DNA of 64,000 nt, from positions 62,001 to 126,000 of the forward strand of contig NZ_CP026951.1 of NCBI RefSeq assembly GCF_003065485.1, read 5' to 3'. The position numbers and the translations under genes were made by a program. The DNA comes from Salinibacterium hongtaonis. GTDB taxonomy: Bacteria; Actinomycetota; Actinomycetes; Actinomycetales; Microbacteriaceae. Positions 1-6,133 of this stretch are shown in pieces; the first letter of the stretch is position 1, and the number at the start of each line of letters is the position of its first letter. The notes below the pieces were generated by a model. That model saw nothing but the letters and a program-made list of their open reading frames with translations. It was not told the origin of the DNA and did not search any database.

Positions 1-186
1 TCCGACGCGGTGGTGCTCGGCCTCAACTGCTTCAGCGACGGCGCATCGGTGGTGATCGCCGAGAGAGCCCGCGGGTTCGCCCGGCAGCTCACCGAGCGCG
101 GCTATACGCCCGTCGGGGTGGAGCTCGACGAGCTTTTGCGCGGCGGCGGCGGCGTCAAATGCTGCACCCTGGAGTTGCGACGATGA
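1..186 (+). CDS. ddaH: Dimethylargininase (DDAH), C-terminal end, truncated by window
   Basis: The window opens inside a reading frame whose last 61 residues end in a GGGGVKCCTLELRR tail. This matches the C-terminus of the dimethylarginine dimethylaminohydrolase / arginine deiminase superfamily, where the Cys in the GG(V/I)KC motif is the catalytic nucleophile. The enzyme would hydrolyse methylated arginine to citrulline and methylamine. The stop codon overlaps the ATG of the aminotransferase gene (ATGA), so the two are translationally coupled. A ddaH-rocD pairing fits arginine/ornithine catabolism. The upstream part is outside the window, so family membership rests on the tail only. Confidence 0.8.
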   Translation, partial: SDAVVLGLNCFSDGASVVIAERARGFARQLTERGYTPVGVELDELLRGGGGVKCCTLELRR

Positions 187-1490
187 GTGCCATGAGGCCG
201 AGGGTTGGGACACTCGCCGACACCACGCCAGCGGCGGTGACGCCGACCAGCGGATCTACGCCGCCCGCGGCATCCGATGCCTTCATCTCGGCGGTTGACG
301 AGCACAGCCCTCACAACTACCACCCGCTGCCCGTGGTTATTGCTACGGGGGAGGGCGCCTGGGTGACCGACGTGCATGGCCGCCGATATCTTGACTGTCT
401 TGCGGCCTACTCCGCCGTGAACTTTGGGCACTCGCCCCGGCGCCTAATCGACGCCGCCAAAGCACAGCTCGACCGCATCACGCTCACTAGCCGTGCGTTC
501 CACAATGACCGGCTCGGAACGTTCGTGACCGAACTGGCCGCCCTCGCCGGCAAAGACATGGTGCTGCCGATGAACACGGGAGCGGAGGCCGTGGAATCGG
601 CCATCAAGGTTGCGCGGGCGTGGGGATACAGGGTCAAGGGCGTGGAGTCTGACCGGGCGAACATCATCGTGATGGCGGGCAATTTTCATGGCCGAACCAC
701 CACAATCGTGAGCTTTAGCGACGATCAGGATGCGCGCGCCGATTTTGGGCCGTTCACCCCGGGTTTTCGCACCGTGCCCTATGGAGATGCCGCCGCTGTG
801 GCGGCAGCAATAGACGAGAACACCGTCGCCGTTCTTGTTGAGCCGATTCAGGGTGAGGCCGGAGTGATCGTGCCGCCGCCCGCGTTCCTGCCGCAGCTGA
901 GAGACCTCTGCACCAGAGAGAACGTGCTGCTGGTCGCCGACGAGATTCAATCGGGCCTCGGCAGAACCGGCACAACCTTCGCCTGTGACCTCGTGGGGGT
1001 CGTGCCCGACCTCTACCTGCTGGGCAAGGCCCTCGGCGGTGGCATCGTCCCCGTCTCTGCCGTCGTGGGCAACCGCGACATCCTGGGCGTTCTGGAGCCC
1101 GGCCAGCATGGCTCCACCTTTGGCGGCAACCCCCTTGCCGCCGCTGTGGGCACCGAGGTCGTGCGCATGCTTGCAGACGGGGCTCCGCAGCGCAGGGCGG
1201 CCGAGCTGGGCGAGAGGATGCACGCGCGACTGCGCGCGCTGGTCGGCTCGGGCGTCGTTGCCGTGAGGGGTGCCGGGCTCTGGGCCGGCATCGATATCGA
1301 TCCCAGCCTCGCTACCGGCAGGAGGGTGTGCGAACTGCTGCTCGCCGAGGGTGTGCTCGTGAAAGACACCCACGGCTCCAGCATCCGCCTGGCCCCGCCC
1401 CTCGTCATCGAGCAAGCGGACCTCGACTGGGCGGTGGATCGGCTCGGCACCGTCATCGAGCACCTCACGGTGCCCGCCAGCGCGCGGTAA
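183..1490 (+). CDS. rocD: Ornithine aminotransferase (PLP, class III)
   Basis: The 435-aa product converts ornithine and 2-oxoglutarate to glutamate semialdehyde and glutamate. Visible class-III aminotransferase signatures are the MNTGAEAVESAIKVAR segment, the GNFHGRT loop, the cofactor-contacting VADEIQSGLGRTG segment, and LLGKALGGG with the Schiff-base lysine near residue 282. The N-terminal 35-40 residues are rich in Pro, Ala and Thr and precede the conserved SAVDEHSPHNYHPLPVV start of the fold. ATG 183 was chosen over ATG 159 because it overlaps the ddaH stop (ATGA) and has GGAG eight bases upstream. It forms a two-gene catabolic unit with ddaH. proC at 53480 could use its product after cyclisation. 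Confidence 0.95.
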   Translation: MSAMRPRVGTLADTTPAAVTPTSGSTPPAASDAFISAVDEHSPHNYHPLPVVIATGEGAWVTDVHGRRYLDCLAAYSAVNFGHSPRRLIDAAKAQLDRITLTSRAFHNDRLGTFVTELAALAGKDMVLPMNTGAEAVESAIKVARAWGYRVKGVESDRANIIVMAGNFHGRTTTIVSFSDDQDARADFGPFTPGFRTVPYGDAAAVAAAIDENTVAVLVEPIQGEAGVIVPPPAFLPQLRDLCTRENVLLVADEIQSGLGRTGTTFACDLVGVVPDLYLLGKALGGGIVPVSAVVGNRDILGVLEPGQHGSTFGGNPLAAAVGTEVVRMLADGAPQRRAAELGERMHARLRALVGSGVVAVRGAGLWAGIDIDPSLATGRRVCELLLAEGVLVKDTHGSSIRLAPPLVIEQADLDWAVDRLGTVIEHLTVPASAR

Positions 1491-1586: not shown

Positions 1587-2669
1587 ATGGCAACGTTCGG
1601 CATGGAAGAGGAATACGCCATTCTCGACCCTATGACCCTCGCACCCCGGGACGAGGCGCCTGCTGTTTATCGCGCCCTGCGGGTGGAGCGCGGCGAGAGC
1701 CGCAACATTCAGCGCGAGTTTCTGCTGAGCCAGCTGGAGCGGCCAACCCCGGTGTGCGAGACCGCCGAGGCCGCGCTCGCCGACCTCATCGGCTTTCGCC
1801 GGAGGCTGCGGGATGCGGCGACGAGCGTCGGTGTCATCGCCGCGTCAACGGGCACCTACCCGCTCGTGGCAAATCCCATCGTGCTCACCGACAAGTCCCG
1901 GTATCACCGAGTGCTGGATGAGTACCGCCACGTGGCCAAGGAATACTTCTACGGCGGATTGCATGTGCACGTAGGCATCGACGATCGTGAATCCGGGGTG
2001 CGAGCGATGAACGCGCTCCGTGTCTGGATGCCCGTCATCGCTGCCCTCGCCACCAACTCACCGCTGTGGAAGGGTGAAGACACCGGGTTCTCTAGCTACC
2101 GCATCATCCAGCTTCAGCGATGGGCGACCAGGGGCACCCCGCCCGCCTTCGTCGACGCGGATGACTACGATCGACGTTCCGCCCGCATCGTGGGGGTCGG
2201 GGGAACCTTCGACGACGCGCTAATCGCCTGGAATATCCGGCTCTCTCGCAAGTTCCCGACCATTGAGGTGCGCGTAGGCGACGCGCAGCTTGAGGCATGG
2301 CACTCGGTGCTGGTGGCGCTCCTGATCCGCGCACTCGTGAGCACCGCGCTCGCCGAGGAGAAGCCCGCTGACCCGCTCCACCCTGAGCTCATCGATTCTG
2401 CGCTGTGGCTTGCCGCCCGTGATGGCATCTCTCACCGGCTTGTGCACCCGTTCACGGGCGAACTCGAGGTGTCGCGCACGGTTGTGGATGCGCTGCTTCA
2501 GCACACGGCCGCCGCACTCGCCGCAGAGGGAGACGCCGAGCGAGTAACCGAGTGGATCGACCGGCTTTTTGCCGAAGGGACGGGCGCCGATCGTCAAAGG
2601 GCGGCCTACTCGGCAGGCGGTCTCCCCGCTCTGGCAGCGCTCATGCGCGGGGCGCTCGCACCCGAATAG
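1587..2669 (+). CDS. YbdK-family carboxylate-amine ligase (GCS2 fold)
   Basis: The 360-aa protein belongs to the glutamate-cysteine ligase type 2 / YbdK family (COG2170): GMEEEYAILDP at the N-terminus, the GGLHVHVGIDD segment around residue 125-130, and SRKFPTIEVRVGD further on are typical active-site stretches. These enzymes use ATP to join an amine to a carboxylate, but the in vivo substrates of YbdK proteins are mostly unknown. ATG 1587 was preferred over GTG 1566 because AGAGGA lies just upstream. It sits 97 bp ahead of the ATP-grasp/alpha-E/transglutaminase trio, a neighbourhood known for these amidoligases, so a role in the same peptide-bond chemistry is inferred. Confidence 0.88.
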   Translation: MATFGMEEEYAILDPMTLAPRDEAPAVYRALRVERGESRNIQREFLLSQLERPTPVCETAEAALADLIGFRRRLRDAATSVGVIAASTGTYPLVANPIVLTDKSRYHRVLDEYRHVAKEYFYGGLHVHVGIDDRESGVRAMNALRVWMPVIAALATNSPLWKGEDTGFSSYRIIQLQRWATRGTPPAFVDADDYDRRSARIVGVGGTFDDALIAWNIRLSRKFPTIEVRVGDAQLEAWHSVLVALLIRALVSTALAEEKPADPLHPELIDSALWLAARDGISHRLVHPFTGELEVSRTVVDALLQHTAAALAAEGDAERVTEWIDRLFAEGTGADRQRAAYSAGGLPALAALMRGALAPE

Positions 2670-2766
2670 TCGACGGATCGCAGCCCCGGCGGGCCGCCGC
2701 AATCGGTAACCTGCAGGGCTACCTGCTCGAAACACCCGCGCAATAGTGCGTCCCTAGGCTCCGGAC

Positions 2767-4371
2767 ATGGACGGGCTCTTCGAGGGATACGGCAGTGGCG
2801 TTAGCCGCCGCCGTGGGGCTGCGCCCTGGGACGAGATGTTCGATCAGAGCAGCGGGGTGCGCCCCGGGTATAAGGAGCTCCACGCTGGCCTGGCAAAGAT
2901 GACCCAGGCGGAGCTGCGCGGTCGCACAGAAGACCTCGCCAACTCCTATCTGGCCCAGGGGGTCACCTTCGACTTTGCCGGCGAGGAGAGGCCGTTCCCC
3001 CTTGACGCCGTGCCCCGGCTCATTGAGCAGCAGGAGTGGAAGGCGGTTTCGGCCGGGGTGCAGCAGCGGGTGCGAGCCCTCGAGGCCTTTCTCGCTGACG
3101 CCTATGGCCCCCAGACCGCGGTGCGCGACGGCATCATCCCGGCGAGGCTCGTGACCTCCTCGACCCATTTTCATCGGGCTGCCGTAGGAATCGAGCCCGC
3201 AAATGGGGTGCGCATCCAGGTCAGCGGCATCGACCTGATCAGGGATGAAGCGGGCGCCTGGCGCGTGCTCGAGGACAATGTGCGCGTGCCGAGCGGGGTG
3301 AGTTACGTGATCTCGAACCGACGGGTCATGAGCCAAACCCTGCCGGAGCTGTTCGCGAGCATGAAGGTGCGCCCCGTCGCCGACTACCCGAGCAAGCTTC
3401 TCGGGGCGCTCAGGGCGAGCGCGCCCGCTGGCGTGGAAAGCCCGACCGTTGTCGTCCTCACCCCCGGTGTTCACAACTCCGCCTACTTTGAGCACACGCT
3501 GCTTGCCCGGCTGATGGGCGTCGAGCTCGTCGAGGGGCGCGATCTCTTTTGCTCTGGCGGAAGTGTCTACATGCGCACGACGGCGGGGCCCACCCGTGTG
3601 GATGTGATCTATCGCCGCGTCGACGACGAATACCTCGATCCTTTGCACTTTCGGGCGGATTCCGTGCTGGGCACACCGGGAATGCTGCTTGCCGCCCGGC
3701 TCGGTCGGGTCACGATTGCCAATGCGGTCGGAAACGGGGTGGCCGACGACAAGCTCGTCTACACGTATGTGCCCGACCTCATCCGCTACTTTCTCGGCGA
3801 AGAGCCGCTGTTGCCCAATGTGACAACCTGGCGACTCGAAGACCCGGAATCGCTTGCCGAGGTACTCGATCGACTCGACGAACTCGTCGTTAAGCCGGTC
3901 GATGGCTCCGGCGGCAAGGGGCTCGTCATCGGGCCGGATGCCAGCAGGGCCGAGCTCGATGAACTGCGCCTCAGGCTCGTGGCCGACCCGCGAGGGTGGA
4001 TTGCCCAACCGCTCGTGCAGCTCTCCACGATTCCCACACTCGTCGATGACGGCATGCGCCCGAGGCACGCCGACCTGCGCCCGTTCGCCGTCAACGACGG
4101 GCGCGATATCTGGGTGCTGCCGGGTGGGCTCACGCGAGTGGCCCTGCCCGAGGGCGAACTCGTGGTCAACAGCAGTCAGGGAGGCGGCTCAAAAGACACC
4201 TGGGTCGTAGGTGATGTGCACGAACCCGCGTGGCCCGTCGGACCCGACCGACGTGCCCCATCCGCATTCTCCCGAGGCGAGAGGTTGCAAGACCACGCTC
4301 CGGCCGATGCGGCGTCTGGGCAACGACAACACGAACAACAACAACAAAGTCGGGAGACACGGCAATGCTGA
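2767..4371 (+). CDS. Circularly permuted ATP-grasp protein (peptide-ligase-like)
   Basis: The 534-aa protein resembles the circularly permuted type-2 ATP-grasp family (COG2308; formerly DUF404/DUF407). Recognisable pieces are LEDNVRVPSGVSYVISNRR, YRRVDDEYLDPL, the nucleotide-binding VVKPVDGSGGKGLVIGPDA segment and the SSQGGGSKDTWV motif near the end of the core. The family is thought to form peptide-like bonds, with substrate unknown. The last 45 or so residues are a low-complexity Gln/Arg/His-rich tail outside the family core. The stop lies inside the start region of the alpha-E gene (7-nt overlap). Together with the flanking genes this is the conserved amidoligase cluster. Confidence 0.9.
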   Translation: MDGLFEGYGSGVSRRRGAAPWDEMFDQSSGVRPGYKELHAGLAKMTQAELRGRTEDLANSYLAQGVTFDFAGEERPFPLDAVPRLIEQQEWKAVSAGVQQRVRALEAFLADAYGPQTAVRDGIIPARLVTSSTHFHRAAVGIEPANGVRIQVSGIDLIRDEAGAWRVLEDNVRVPSGVSYVISNRRVMSQTLPELFASMKVRPVADYPSKLLGALRASAPAGVESPTVVVLTPGVHNSAYFEHTLLARLMGVELVEGRDLFCSGGSVYMRTTAGPTRVDVIYRRVDDEYLDPLHFRADSVLGTPGMLLAARLGRVTIANAVGNGVADDKLVYTYVPDLIRYFLGEEPLLPNVTTWRLEDPESLAEVLDRLDELVVKPVDGSGGKGLVIGPDASRAELDELRLRLVADPRGWIAQPLVQLSTIPTLVDDGMRPRHADLRPFAVNDGRDIWVLPGGLTRVALPEGELVVNSSQGGGSKDTWVVGDVHEPAWPVGPDRRAPSAFSRGERLQDHAPADAASGQRQHEQQQQSRETRQC

Positions 4372-5291
4372 GCCGAATCGCCGAATCACTCTTTTGGATC
4401 GGGCGTTACATCGAGAGAGCCGATGGCACCGCGAGTGTGCTCGACGCGCACCTGCAACTGCTGCTCGAGGACCCCTGGATTGACGAGAATCTCGCGTGCC
4501 GTTCCATCCTCGAAGTGATGGGAGCCAAGATTCCCGAGACCGGCGACATGACCCGGCAGGACGTGCTCTCGCTGCTCGCCGTCGACCGTTCCCAACCCAC
4601 CGCGATCGCCTTCTCGCTGGGCGCGGCACGGGAGAATGCCCGCCGGGCTCGCGAGATCGTCTCAACCGAACTATGGGAGTGCCTCAACACCACGCGGGCG
4701 CGCACGCCGCGCAAGGTCGCCGACGACAAGGTGCACGCCTTCATCGCGTGGGTTCGGGAGCGCTCGGCGCTCGCCGTTGGCATCATCGAGTCGGCGACGC
4801 GACGCGACGAAGCCTGGTATTTCTTCACGCTCGGCAGGAGCCTCGAGCGCGCCGATATGACGGCACGGCTTCTGGCCACGCGCTCACTCACAGAAGACAG
4901 CGGGCCATCATGGACCACCATCCTGCGCAGTTGCGGTGCCTATGAGTCGTATCTGCGTACGCACAGCGGTTCGCCCAGCGCCGTGCGTGCGGGGGAGTTT
5001 CTGCTGCTTGATCGGCAGTTCCCCCGCAGCATCCTTTTCTCCCTCACGAGGGCGGAGCATTGCCTCGACGAGATCGAACCGAGGTCCGAGACGGCGGCAC
5101 CCGATCAGAGCAGGCGCATGCTCGGCCAAATCCGCAGCGAAATCGAGTACCGACCCATCGCCGAGATCCTCGAAGACTTGCCCGCACATATGGAGAGCGT
5201 GCAACTCGCCACGAGCTCGGTTTCGGAGCAGGCGCGGCTGCGGTACTTTCCCAACGATGCCGCCCCCAGCTGGGTAGGGGAAACCACATGA
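4365..5291 (+). CDS. Alpha-E domain protein (COG2307)
   Basis: The 308-aa, almost entirely helical protein begins MLSRIAESLFWIGRYIERAD, the hallmark of the alpha-E family, and contains the related repeat WYFFTLGRSLERADMTARLL near residue 145-165. The biochemical function is unknown; alpha-E proteins accompany the circularly permuted ATP-grasp and transglutaminase proteins and are thought to assist the amidoligase. ATG 4365 overlaps the upstream stop and matches where family members begin, although the frame stays open further upstream to 4230. The stop overlaps the next ATG, so the three downstream genes of the cluster are coupled. Confidence 0.92.
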   Translation: MLSRIAESLFWIGRYIERADGTASVLDAHLQLLLEDPWIDENLACRSILEVMGAKIPETGDMTRQDVLSLLAVDRSQPTAIAFSLGAARENARRAREIVSTELWECLNTTRARTPRKVADDKVHAFIAWVRERSALAVGIIESATRRDEAWYFFTLGRSLERADMTARLLATRSLTEDSGPSWTTILRSCGAYESYLRTHSGSPSAVRAGEFLLLDRQFPRSILFSLTRAEHCLDEIEPRSETAAPDQSRRMLGQIRSEIEYRPIAEILEDLPAHMESVQLATSSVSEQARLRYFPNDAAPSWVGETT

Positions 5292-6133
5292 ACCGGTTAC
5301 GCGTCCGTCACATTACGGGGTTTCGCTACACCTCTCCCGTCGCCGCGTCATACAACGAGGCCAGGATGCTGCCCATCACGACCGACGGCCAGTTTGTTTT
5401 GCACGCGAGCATCGACATCCAGCCGGCGTCGAGCCACCACGAATACATGGACTACTGGGGCAGCAGAGTTTCGGCGTTCGAGGCATTGAGTGGCCACCAC
5501 GAGCTCTCGCTCACGTCGACGAGCCTCGTGGAGGTGAGCCATCGCCGACACGACCATGAGGCGATCGGTTGGGATGACCTCGCCGCCGAAGTCGAGCGCC
5601 TCGTCGAGACGGTCGAGCATCTTGAGCAGAGTGAGCGCACGACCCCACCTGCTGAACTGGCCGAACTCGCCGTCGCGATTGCGGAGACCTCCGCCGGACC
5701 GTGCGATGCCGCGCGGCGAATCTGCATCGCAATCGGTGAGCAGCTCGACTACGTCAGCGGCATTACGGGCGTCAACTCGACCGCGGCAGAGGCCTGGGTA
5801 GAACGCAAAGGGGTTTGCCAAGACTTTGCTCACCTCGCGCTCGGGGCTCTCCGCTCGATCGGCATCCCCGCTCGCTATGTCTCCGGCTATCTGCACCCAG
5901 ACCCTGAGCCCATCGTGGGGGTTACCCAGGAGGGCGAATCCCATGCATGGGTCGAATGGTTTTGCGGGGTCTGGTGCGGGTTTGACCCCACAAACGGCAT
6001 CGATATTGGCGACCGCCACGTGCTCGTGGGCCGAGGTCGTGACTATGGAGATGTTCCGCCGCTGAAGGGCGTGTACTCGGGCGGCACCGCCTCAGAAATG
6101 TTCGTGCGCGTTGACATCACCCGCGAGGCCTAG
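5288..6133 (+). CDS. Transglutaminase-like cysteine protease/peptidase (COG1305)
   Basis: The 281-aa protein has an N-terminal beta domain (MNRLRVRHITGFRYTSPVAASYNEARMLP) and a transglutaminase core: ERKGVCQDFAHL contains the catalytic Cys, SHAWVEWFCG the catalytic His, and FDPTNG the Asp. This bacterial transglutaminase group usually acts as a cysteine peptidase or amidase rather than a cross-linker. The start ATG overlaps the alpha-E stop (ATGA). It is the last gene of the amidoligase cluster and ends 7 bp before the convergent MFS gene. It may process, release or transfer the product of the two ligases; that role is inferred from neighbourhood. Confidence 0.92.
   Translation: MNRLRVRHITGFRYTSPVAASYNEARMLPITTDGQFVLHASIDIQPASSHHEYMDYWGSRVSAFEALSGHHELSLTSTSLVEVSHRRHDHEAIGWDDLAAEVERLVETVEHLEQSERTTPPAELAELAVAIAETSAGPCDAARRICIAIGEQLDYVSGITGVNSTAAEAWVERKGVCQDFAHLALGALRSIGIPARYVSGYLHPDPEPIVGVTQEGESHAWVEWFCGVWCGFDPTNGIDIGDRHVLVGRGRDYGDVPPLKGVYSGGTASEMFVRVDITREA

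Follow-up and report, generated by a model that had tools for sequence, protein, structure and literature searches.

A three-gene ATP-grasp/alpha-E/transglutaminase operon with a polyglutamine tail and a GlnR-like promoter box in Microbacteriaceae

The window analyzed here, a stretch of 64,000 nucleotides (nt) from the single-contig, 2.81-Mb genome of Salinibacterium hongtaonis, carries three adjoining genes for a circularly permuted type 2 ATP-grasp amide ligase (here GRASP), an alpha-E protein (the only alpha-E match in the genome) and a transglutaminase-like protein (TGL). An original prediction, made from the window alone, had described a four-gene amidoligase cluster that also included an upstream GCS2-family gene. 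All four genes are real; the unit is the three-gene operon GRASP-alphaE-TGL, and GCS2 is a neighbor. We read the unit as an amide-ligase operon of nitrogen limitation in which the glutamine (Gln)-rich tail of GRASP may be a substrate or docking site of TGL, and we give this reading as a whole a probability of about 0.58. It starts from features that are directly observed (i.e., gene content, order, conservation, the tail, and the promoter and box pattern in relatives), and support for its further steps falls from the proposed action of GlnR, to a putative GRASP-alphaE complex, to an amide product made at nitrogen limitation and, last, to the action of TGL on the Gln tail.

The three-gene unit and its conservation

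GRASP (positions 2767-4371, forward strand; 534 amino acids) matches PF14403 at 533.9 bits and PF04174 at 492.3 bits and has a solved relative in 3n6x (E 2.1e-153); at least 97% of 120 sequences share its K376, its Gly-rich loop and almost all of N468-W479. The alpha-E protein (4365-5291, forward; 308 amino acids) matches PF04168 at 264.9 bits, and R14, R18, R89, E161 and R168 are among its conserved residues. TGL (5288-6133, forward; 281 amino acids) matches PF01841 at 70.9 bits and PF08379 at 69.3 bits, and at least 97% of 129 sequences retain its Cys177, His219 and Asp233, which we take to be the Cys-His-Asp triad. All four genes lie on one strand with Pfam matches, and, as predicted, the last three overlap at their stops and starts, by 7 nt between GRASP and alpha-E (ATGCTGA, 4365-4371) and by 4 nt between alpha-E and TGL (ATGA, 5288-5291). 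In the domain scan, three of the frames scanned opened somewhat 5' of the gene starts given here.

The AlphaFold2 model of the alpha-E protein is confident (predicted local distance difference test [pLDDT], 88.6; predicted template modeling score [pTM], 0.89), and a Foldseek comparison of it with the PDB gave 172 matches, none of them at E 0.001 (best E, 0.76); such a confident alpha-E model without a significant PDB match looks new against the literature searched. A natural GRASP-alphaE fusion from a paralogous cluster, modeled as one chain, reached a pLDDT of 89.4 and a pTM of 0.90. The ATP-grasp part of that model matched 3n6x best (E 4.2e-32), then eukaryotic glutathione synthetases, and also glutathionylspermidine and trypanothione synthetases.

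Conservation was followed mainly in 80 named loci, the best 80 of 580 confirmed alpha-E matches and a set biased towards relatives of the window. Flanks of up to 8 kb were fetched (all 8 kb are available on either side in 50 of the 80 loci; the smallest locus spans 3.4 kb in total). The order GRASP-alphaE-TGL occurs in 70 of these loci, and the other 10 show contig ends, split frames, an extra alpha-E (Microcella, L163) or an extra, distant TGL match (L202). Of 150 genomes of the family, 94 have an alpha-E gene; in a phylum sample, 44 of 246 do. The predicted amidoligase neighborhood is borne out, its core being conserved far beyond chance. A check for a fifth co-occurring gene found none: with open reading frames of at least 100 amino acids clustered around 44 family- and class-set loci and the 80 named loci, only the three core families recurred in most loci, and among frames of 20 to 99 amino acids within about 1.5 kb of the core no cluster exceeded 10 of 126 loci. 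Two clusters reached that number, ribosomal protein S20 (recognized by eye) and a downstream small frame taken for chance. An alpha/beta hydrolase gene and an MFS/MarR pair were also considered as members; they are recurrent but persist where the core has been lost, and we read them as old neighbors.

The polyglutamine tail of GRASP

Beyond its GGGSKDTW motif, GRASP of the window continues into a C-terminal tail of 55 amino acids (4204-4368, forward) that contains the run QQQQ, encoded by four CAA codons (4336-4347, forward). The tail had been singled out as unusual. It is real, yet ordinary for its kind: its Gln content is 14.5%, against a median of 15.0% for 117 tails longer than 20 amino acids. 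Across 121 single-gene GRASP proteins, the tail after the GGGSKDTW-type motif has a median length of 68 amino acids and contains a Gln run of at least three residues in 109, at least four in 101 and at least five in 77. Removing identical tails leaves 119, of which 107, 99 and 76 have runs of these lengths; some genomes are present twice in this reduced set as well. QQQQ occurs in 102 of 118 GRASP reading frames versus none of 937 other conserved reading frames of the same loci, and a run of at least three is found in 36 of 39 named tails outside our Microbacteriaceae list. The 12 tails without such a run are those of L091, L125, L133, L135-L139, L176, L201, L208 and L218; among phylum-sample loci outside the window's class, six lack the run (L133, L135-L139) and only L140 has one.

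The polyglutamine tail is, in total, a conserved hallmark of GRASP, and it looks new against the literature searched. The original prediction had seen no obvious substrate peptide at the locus, a statement that needs revision, the conserved tail being itself a candidate substrate. A Gln run that actinobacterial families have retained next to a transglutaminase-like gene would offer a concrete substrate candidate for a poorly understood system, and a conserved bacterial polyglutamine may be of interest to polyglutamine research in general. Ahead of the Gln run, the pattern D-x-[GSANT]-P occurs in 52 of 109 tails (shuffled mean, 16; shuffled maximum, 28); this pattern was chosen after looking and is suggestive only. 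A frameshift as the origin of the odd tail is disfavored by the similar in-frame tails of relatives.

Does the tail stand in for Anbu, the proteasome-like protein found in related operons? We do not claim so; Sinorhizobium L225 and Caballeronia L226 list neither tail nor Anbu in the fetched stretch. A phmmer search with Klebsiella Anbu matched only L137 and L138, both without a Gln run. In these two loci, from distant actinobacterial genomes, an Anbu-like frame lies between alpha-E and TGL, and GRASP has no Gln tail.

The GRASP promoter and its GlnR-like box

The 97-bp spacer between GCS2 and GRASP (2670-2766) contains a promoter-like site, made up of the -10 hexamer TAGGCT (2755-2760, forward), 6 nt before the GRASP ATG, and a GlnR-box-like site, GAAAC-n6-GCAAT (2729-2744, forward), one mismatch from GNAAC-n6-GNAAC. 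Both follow a pattern of the family. Of 73 loci, 50 have TANNNT 6 to 7 nt 5' of the GRASP start, whereas four shifted controls gave 0, 0, 0 and 1; the 73 are loci in which the start was placed by an N-terminal motif, and 15 of these anchors lie off the start codon, an offset that could only reduce the count. (A looser promoter count gave 93 loci without a denominator, and the 50 of 73 is used in its place.) Based on this hexamer position, GRASP is predicted to have its own leaderless promoter.

In 92 aligned upstream regions, which were selected for the hexamer, the box reads GAAAC-n6-GCAAC and ends 10 nt before the hexamer; GNAAC-n6-GNAAC falls within 60 nt in 46 of the 92, with 0.001 expected per region. 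When loci are grouped by record title (17 of the 80 remained ungrouped), this pattern precedes GRASP in 28 of 35 named Microbacteriaceae and in 23 of 32 loci of the family set, versus 78 of 16,566 control windows. Full sites in the fetched loci number 48 upstream of GRASP and 5 elsewhere. Three of those five lie directly before an orphan or second alpha-E gene (L094:9511-10512, L095:9574-10522 and L163:9815-10768); the genome of L094 has no circularly permuted ATP-grasp match, and that of L095 has only a GCS2 fusion.

Across 60 genomes of the family, a strict search for the box together with the -10 hexamer returned 57 sites in 30 genomes, versus 1 for the reversed pattern. Of these sites, 21 lie within 3.5 kb of an alpha-E gene, and downstream genes were examined for 20 of the remaining 36. 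They include glnR itself (L258), xanthine and uracil permeases (L234, L249), an NAD synthase (L253), solute-binding proteins (L231, L245, L248, L252), an amidohydrolase (L235) and aminotransferases (L237, L246). These genes, and the SIR2 gene of L232, were identified by family search or PDB match, the rest by eye. Several genera have SIR2-like genes behind this GlnR-like promoter (Pfam confirms that of L232; those of L233, L255 and L257 were judged by eye).

The window genome has one glnR match (G000:C1:307000-307653), 68% identical to the glnR query. The best PDB matches of that query are 8hih, 8hig, 8hml and 4o1i, which we take to be GlnR structures, followed by PhoB chains and 4o1h, titled "Transcription regulator GlnR." In two of five genomes of the genus, GNNAC-n6-GNAAC is found at -172 before glnR. 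The box of most sampled Microbacteriaceae appears to match the GlnR consensus published for Mycobacterium smegmatis, GnnAC-n6-GnAACA (PMC3662644); other GlnR boxes are tabulated in PMC10704036. The parts of the literature consulted turned up no link of a GRASP-alphaE-TGL operon to polyglutamine or to GlnR, and the promoter with its box looks new on that basis. We consider control of the operon by GlnR at nitrogen limitation, in Microbacteriaceae, most likely.

Proposed mechanism, rival explanations and known systems

In the model that we propose, the operon would be transcribed from its own leaderless promoter, in Microbacteriaceae under GlnR control at nitrogen limitation. GRASP, with the predicted fold of eukaryotic glutathione and glutathionylspermidine synthetases, would couple a carboxylate with an amine at the expense of ATP; because GRASP and alpha-E occur as natural fusions, the helical alpha-E protein would work with GRASP as a subunit. 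We posit that TGL probably uses the flexible tail of GRASP, with its Gln run, as an acyl donor or docking site, and that TGL may transfer or hydrolyze Gln amides or reverse the ligase product. The GlnR-type box points to nitrogen limitation as the condition, which accords with the NtrC control of a related Burkholderia cluster. One could speculate further that the Gln run is the acyl donor for TGL in a self-substrate amide cycle, through which nitrogen limitation would bring amine loading, cross-linking or deamidation of the ligase-alphaE complex via the tail of GRASP. We regard this cycle as unlikely; if it were true, polyglutamine would be kept by selection in bacteria.

Several observations weigh against the nitrogen-limitation reading. 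The operon is dispensable, because all four other genomes of the window's genus lack an intact core. The Gln tail appears unnecessary for the chemistry in general, because in four proteobacterial relatives no more than 12 residues follow the GGGSKDTW-type motif. The box itself is confined: of 28 named loci in the other grouped families, none has GNAAC-n6-GNAAC and 3 have the looser GNNAC-n6-GNAAC, and the former is present in 1 of 14 loci of the phylum set. The window's own box carries a mismatch (GCAAT) and is absent from the 4 exact matches in the window genome, and no GNNAC-n6-GNAAC was seen in the 260 nt that precede glnR of the window genome. No glnA- or amtB-like gene was recognized among the 20 box-linked downstream genes, several of which (SIR2, an ABC ATPase, a GNAT) have no evident tie to nitrogen. 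Chromatin immunoprecipitation sequencing of GlnR in M. smegmatis gave 53 sites, and Table 1 of PMC3662644 annotates none of them as such an operon, though it lists several as "uncharacterised."

Could the tail instead be a neutral, disordered end, grown by CAG/CAA slippage or serving only the translation of the overlapping alpha-E gene? Most Gln runs end 8 to 104 nt 5' of the alpha-E start, and the two genes mostly overlap or nearly touch; CAA makes up 242 of 1,285 Gln codons in the tail and is less common in the GRASP body (107 of 1,652); and the tail outside the run varies strongly. These points favor such an end, and we hold the explanation to be doubtful, though worth serious consideration. 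However, CAA/CAG runs of at least four codons lie only in the Gln frame (113, versus 0 and 0 in the other two), which also disfavors an RNA-level reason for the CAA repeat; a run of at least three is kept in all 7 loci with a GRASP-alphaE gap of more than 40 nt; and none of 140 alpha-E C-termini contains QQQQ. On these three grounds it seems to be the amino acid that conservation has kept, rather than a DNA repeat or a gene overlap. The absence of QQQQ from the other conserved frames of the same loci and the spread of the run beyond the Microbacteriaceae list also speak against neutrality. A different proposal, made for the Anbu operon (PMC6376114), is pupylation-like tagging, in which GRASP would attach a tag to proteins and TGL would remove it, for turnover at nitrogen starvation. 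Amide-forming and amide-cleaving enzymes do occur together here, and relatives have a nitrogen-type promoter, but the closest folds to that of GRASP belong to small-peptide ligases, and the clustering described above gave neither a conserved extra gene nor a widely kept small frame. The window genome also lacks a Proteasome-family protein: the original prediction of no adjacent Anbu extends to the whole genome, in which PF00227 has no match, so that no Anbu, HslV or 20S proteasome was detected (the same search was positive in 10 of 14 control genomes). We think tagging improbable.

The remaining alternative, and by some way the least probable, makes the four genes one pathway in which GCS2 (1587-2669, forward; PF04107, 143 bits) would supply GRASP with a gamma-glutamyl or similar dipeptide for extension. 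GCS2 adjoins the core in the same direction in the window, GRASP has a glutathione synthetase fold, and 11 fetched Microbacteriaceae loci (L101-L111) encode a natural GCS2-GRASP fusion of about 850 amino acids, which gives indirect support to a link between the two enzyme families. Against this, GCS2, sought with our own profile, stands beside the core in the fetched flanks of none of the 80 named loci; among loci fetched for alpha-E, it adjoins the core in the window's genus only, and the plasmid searches showed no GCS2 beside GRASP among the matches listed. Linkage fails in the other direction as well. G080 and G393, of the window's genus, have an ornithine aminotransferase-like gene, GCS2 and an MFS gene in a row with no core gene between them and no alpha-E in the genome, and in G044, outside the genus, the closest other GCS2 (64%) lies beside an MFS gene in a genome without alpha-E or GRASP. 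G143 (L062:9201-10550) has an intact GCS2 despite internal deletions in GRASP and in TGL, with an intact alpha-E, 84% identical to that of the window, between them and no circularly permuted ATP-grasp elsewhere in its genome; G392 has neither a GCS2 match (at E 1e-40) nor alpha-E. In addition, GCS2 and GRASP are parted by a separate promoter-like site, and in trees both of these window proteins fall outside the clades of the GCS2-GRASP fusions. On linkage in both directions and the trees we reject GCS2 as part of the unit, and its predicted membership was not upheld. The fusions share their two enzyme families with the window but differ in being fused and in having no Gln run, no GlnR box and no alpha-E or TGL in the fetched stretch; they look like two-step gamma-glutamyl peptide synthases. 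The ornithine aminotransferase-like gene of the window (159-1490) lies directly 5' of GCS2, and its counterpart likewise adjoins GCS2 in G143, G080 and G393.

Among known systems, the window operon can be classed, by family and order, as an actinobacterial, Anbu-less form of the circularly permuted ATP-grasp/alpha-E/transglutaminase system. The Anbu operon comprises ATP-grasp, alpha-E, transglutaminase-like and Anbu genes (PMC6376114, PMC5666114), and predictions of the function of this gene set date to 2009 (Iyer et al. 2009, as cited in both). The window operon has the same three families, with the motifs of a circularly permuted ATP-grasp, an adjacent alpha-E, a Cys-His-Asp TGL and the same order. 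It differs in lacking Anbu (frequent, though not universal, in such operons) throughout the genome, in its polyglutamine C-terminal tail and in its GlnR-type promoter in Microbacteriaceae. The one Anbu locus fetched with annotation, from Klebsiella (L224), lists an ATP-grasp, a gap without a listed alpha-E, a transglutaminase and Anbu. The portions of PMC6376114 and PMC5666114 consulted report no substrate; the former describes measured phosphate release from ATP for a relative and, in those portions, no Anbu peptidase activity and no complex of the operon proteins with Anbu. According to PMC5666114, the operon proteins are nonessential without stress and unchanged under various conditions, and Anbu is up in nitrogen-limited Pseudomonas putida (as cited there).

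A regulatory parallel is I35_5080-83 of Burkholderia cenocepacia (PMC5491218), an NtrC-dependent DUF404/407-DUF403-transglutaminase cluster that shares these genes and nitrogen control with the window operon and differs in sigma54/NtrC regulation and a second large transglutaminase-like protein. Marine metagenomes also link DUF403/404/407 and a transglutaminase-like domain to urea metabolism (PMC3597751), and SCO1086 of Streptomyces coelicolor is described as a transglutaminase-domain protein repressed by ArgR. The rlo operon of Pseudomonas aeruginosa likewise combines an ATP-grasp with a transglutaminase-type protein and also has a protease; its transglutaminase is transmembrane and inactive, its retropepsins are secreted, and the abstract names no alpha-E (PMC12239564). 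Eukaryotic glutathione synthetase and glutathionylspermidine and trypanothione synthetases share the fold of the ATP-grasp part; GRASP differs from them in sequence (about 10 to 15% identity) and in its alpha-E partner. The paralogous clusters with a GRASP-alphaE fusion (L089, L090, L128-L132, L134, L139) have no GlnR box in any of the nine upstream regions. In most of them a TGL gene lies beside the fusion, and in several a further TGL match falls within a very long open frame, one exceeding 1,100 codons.

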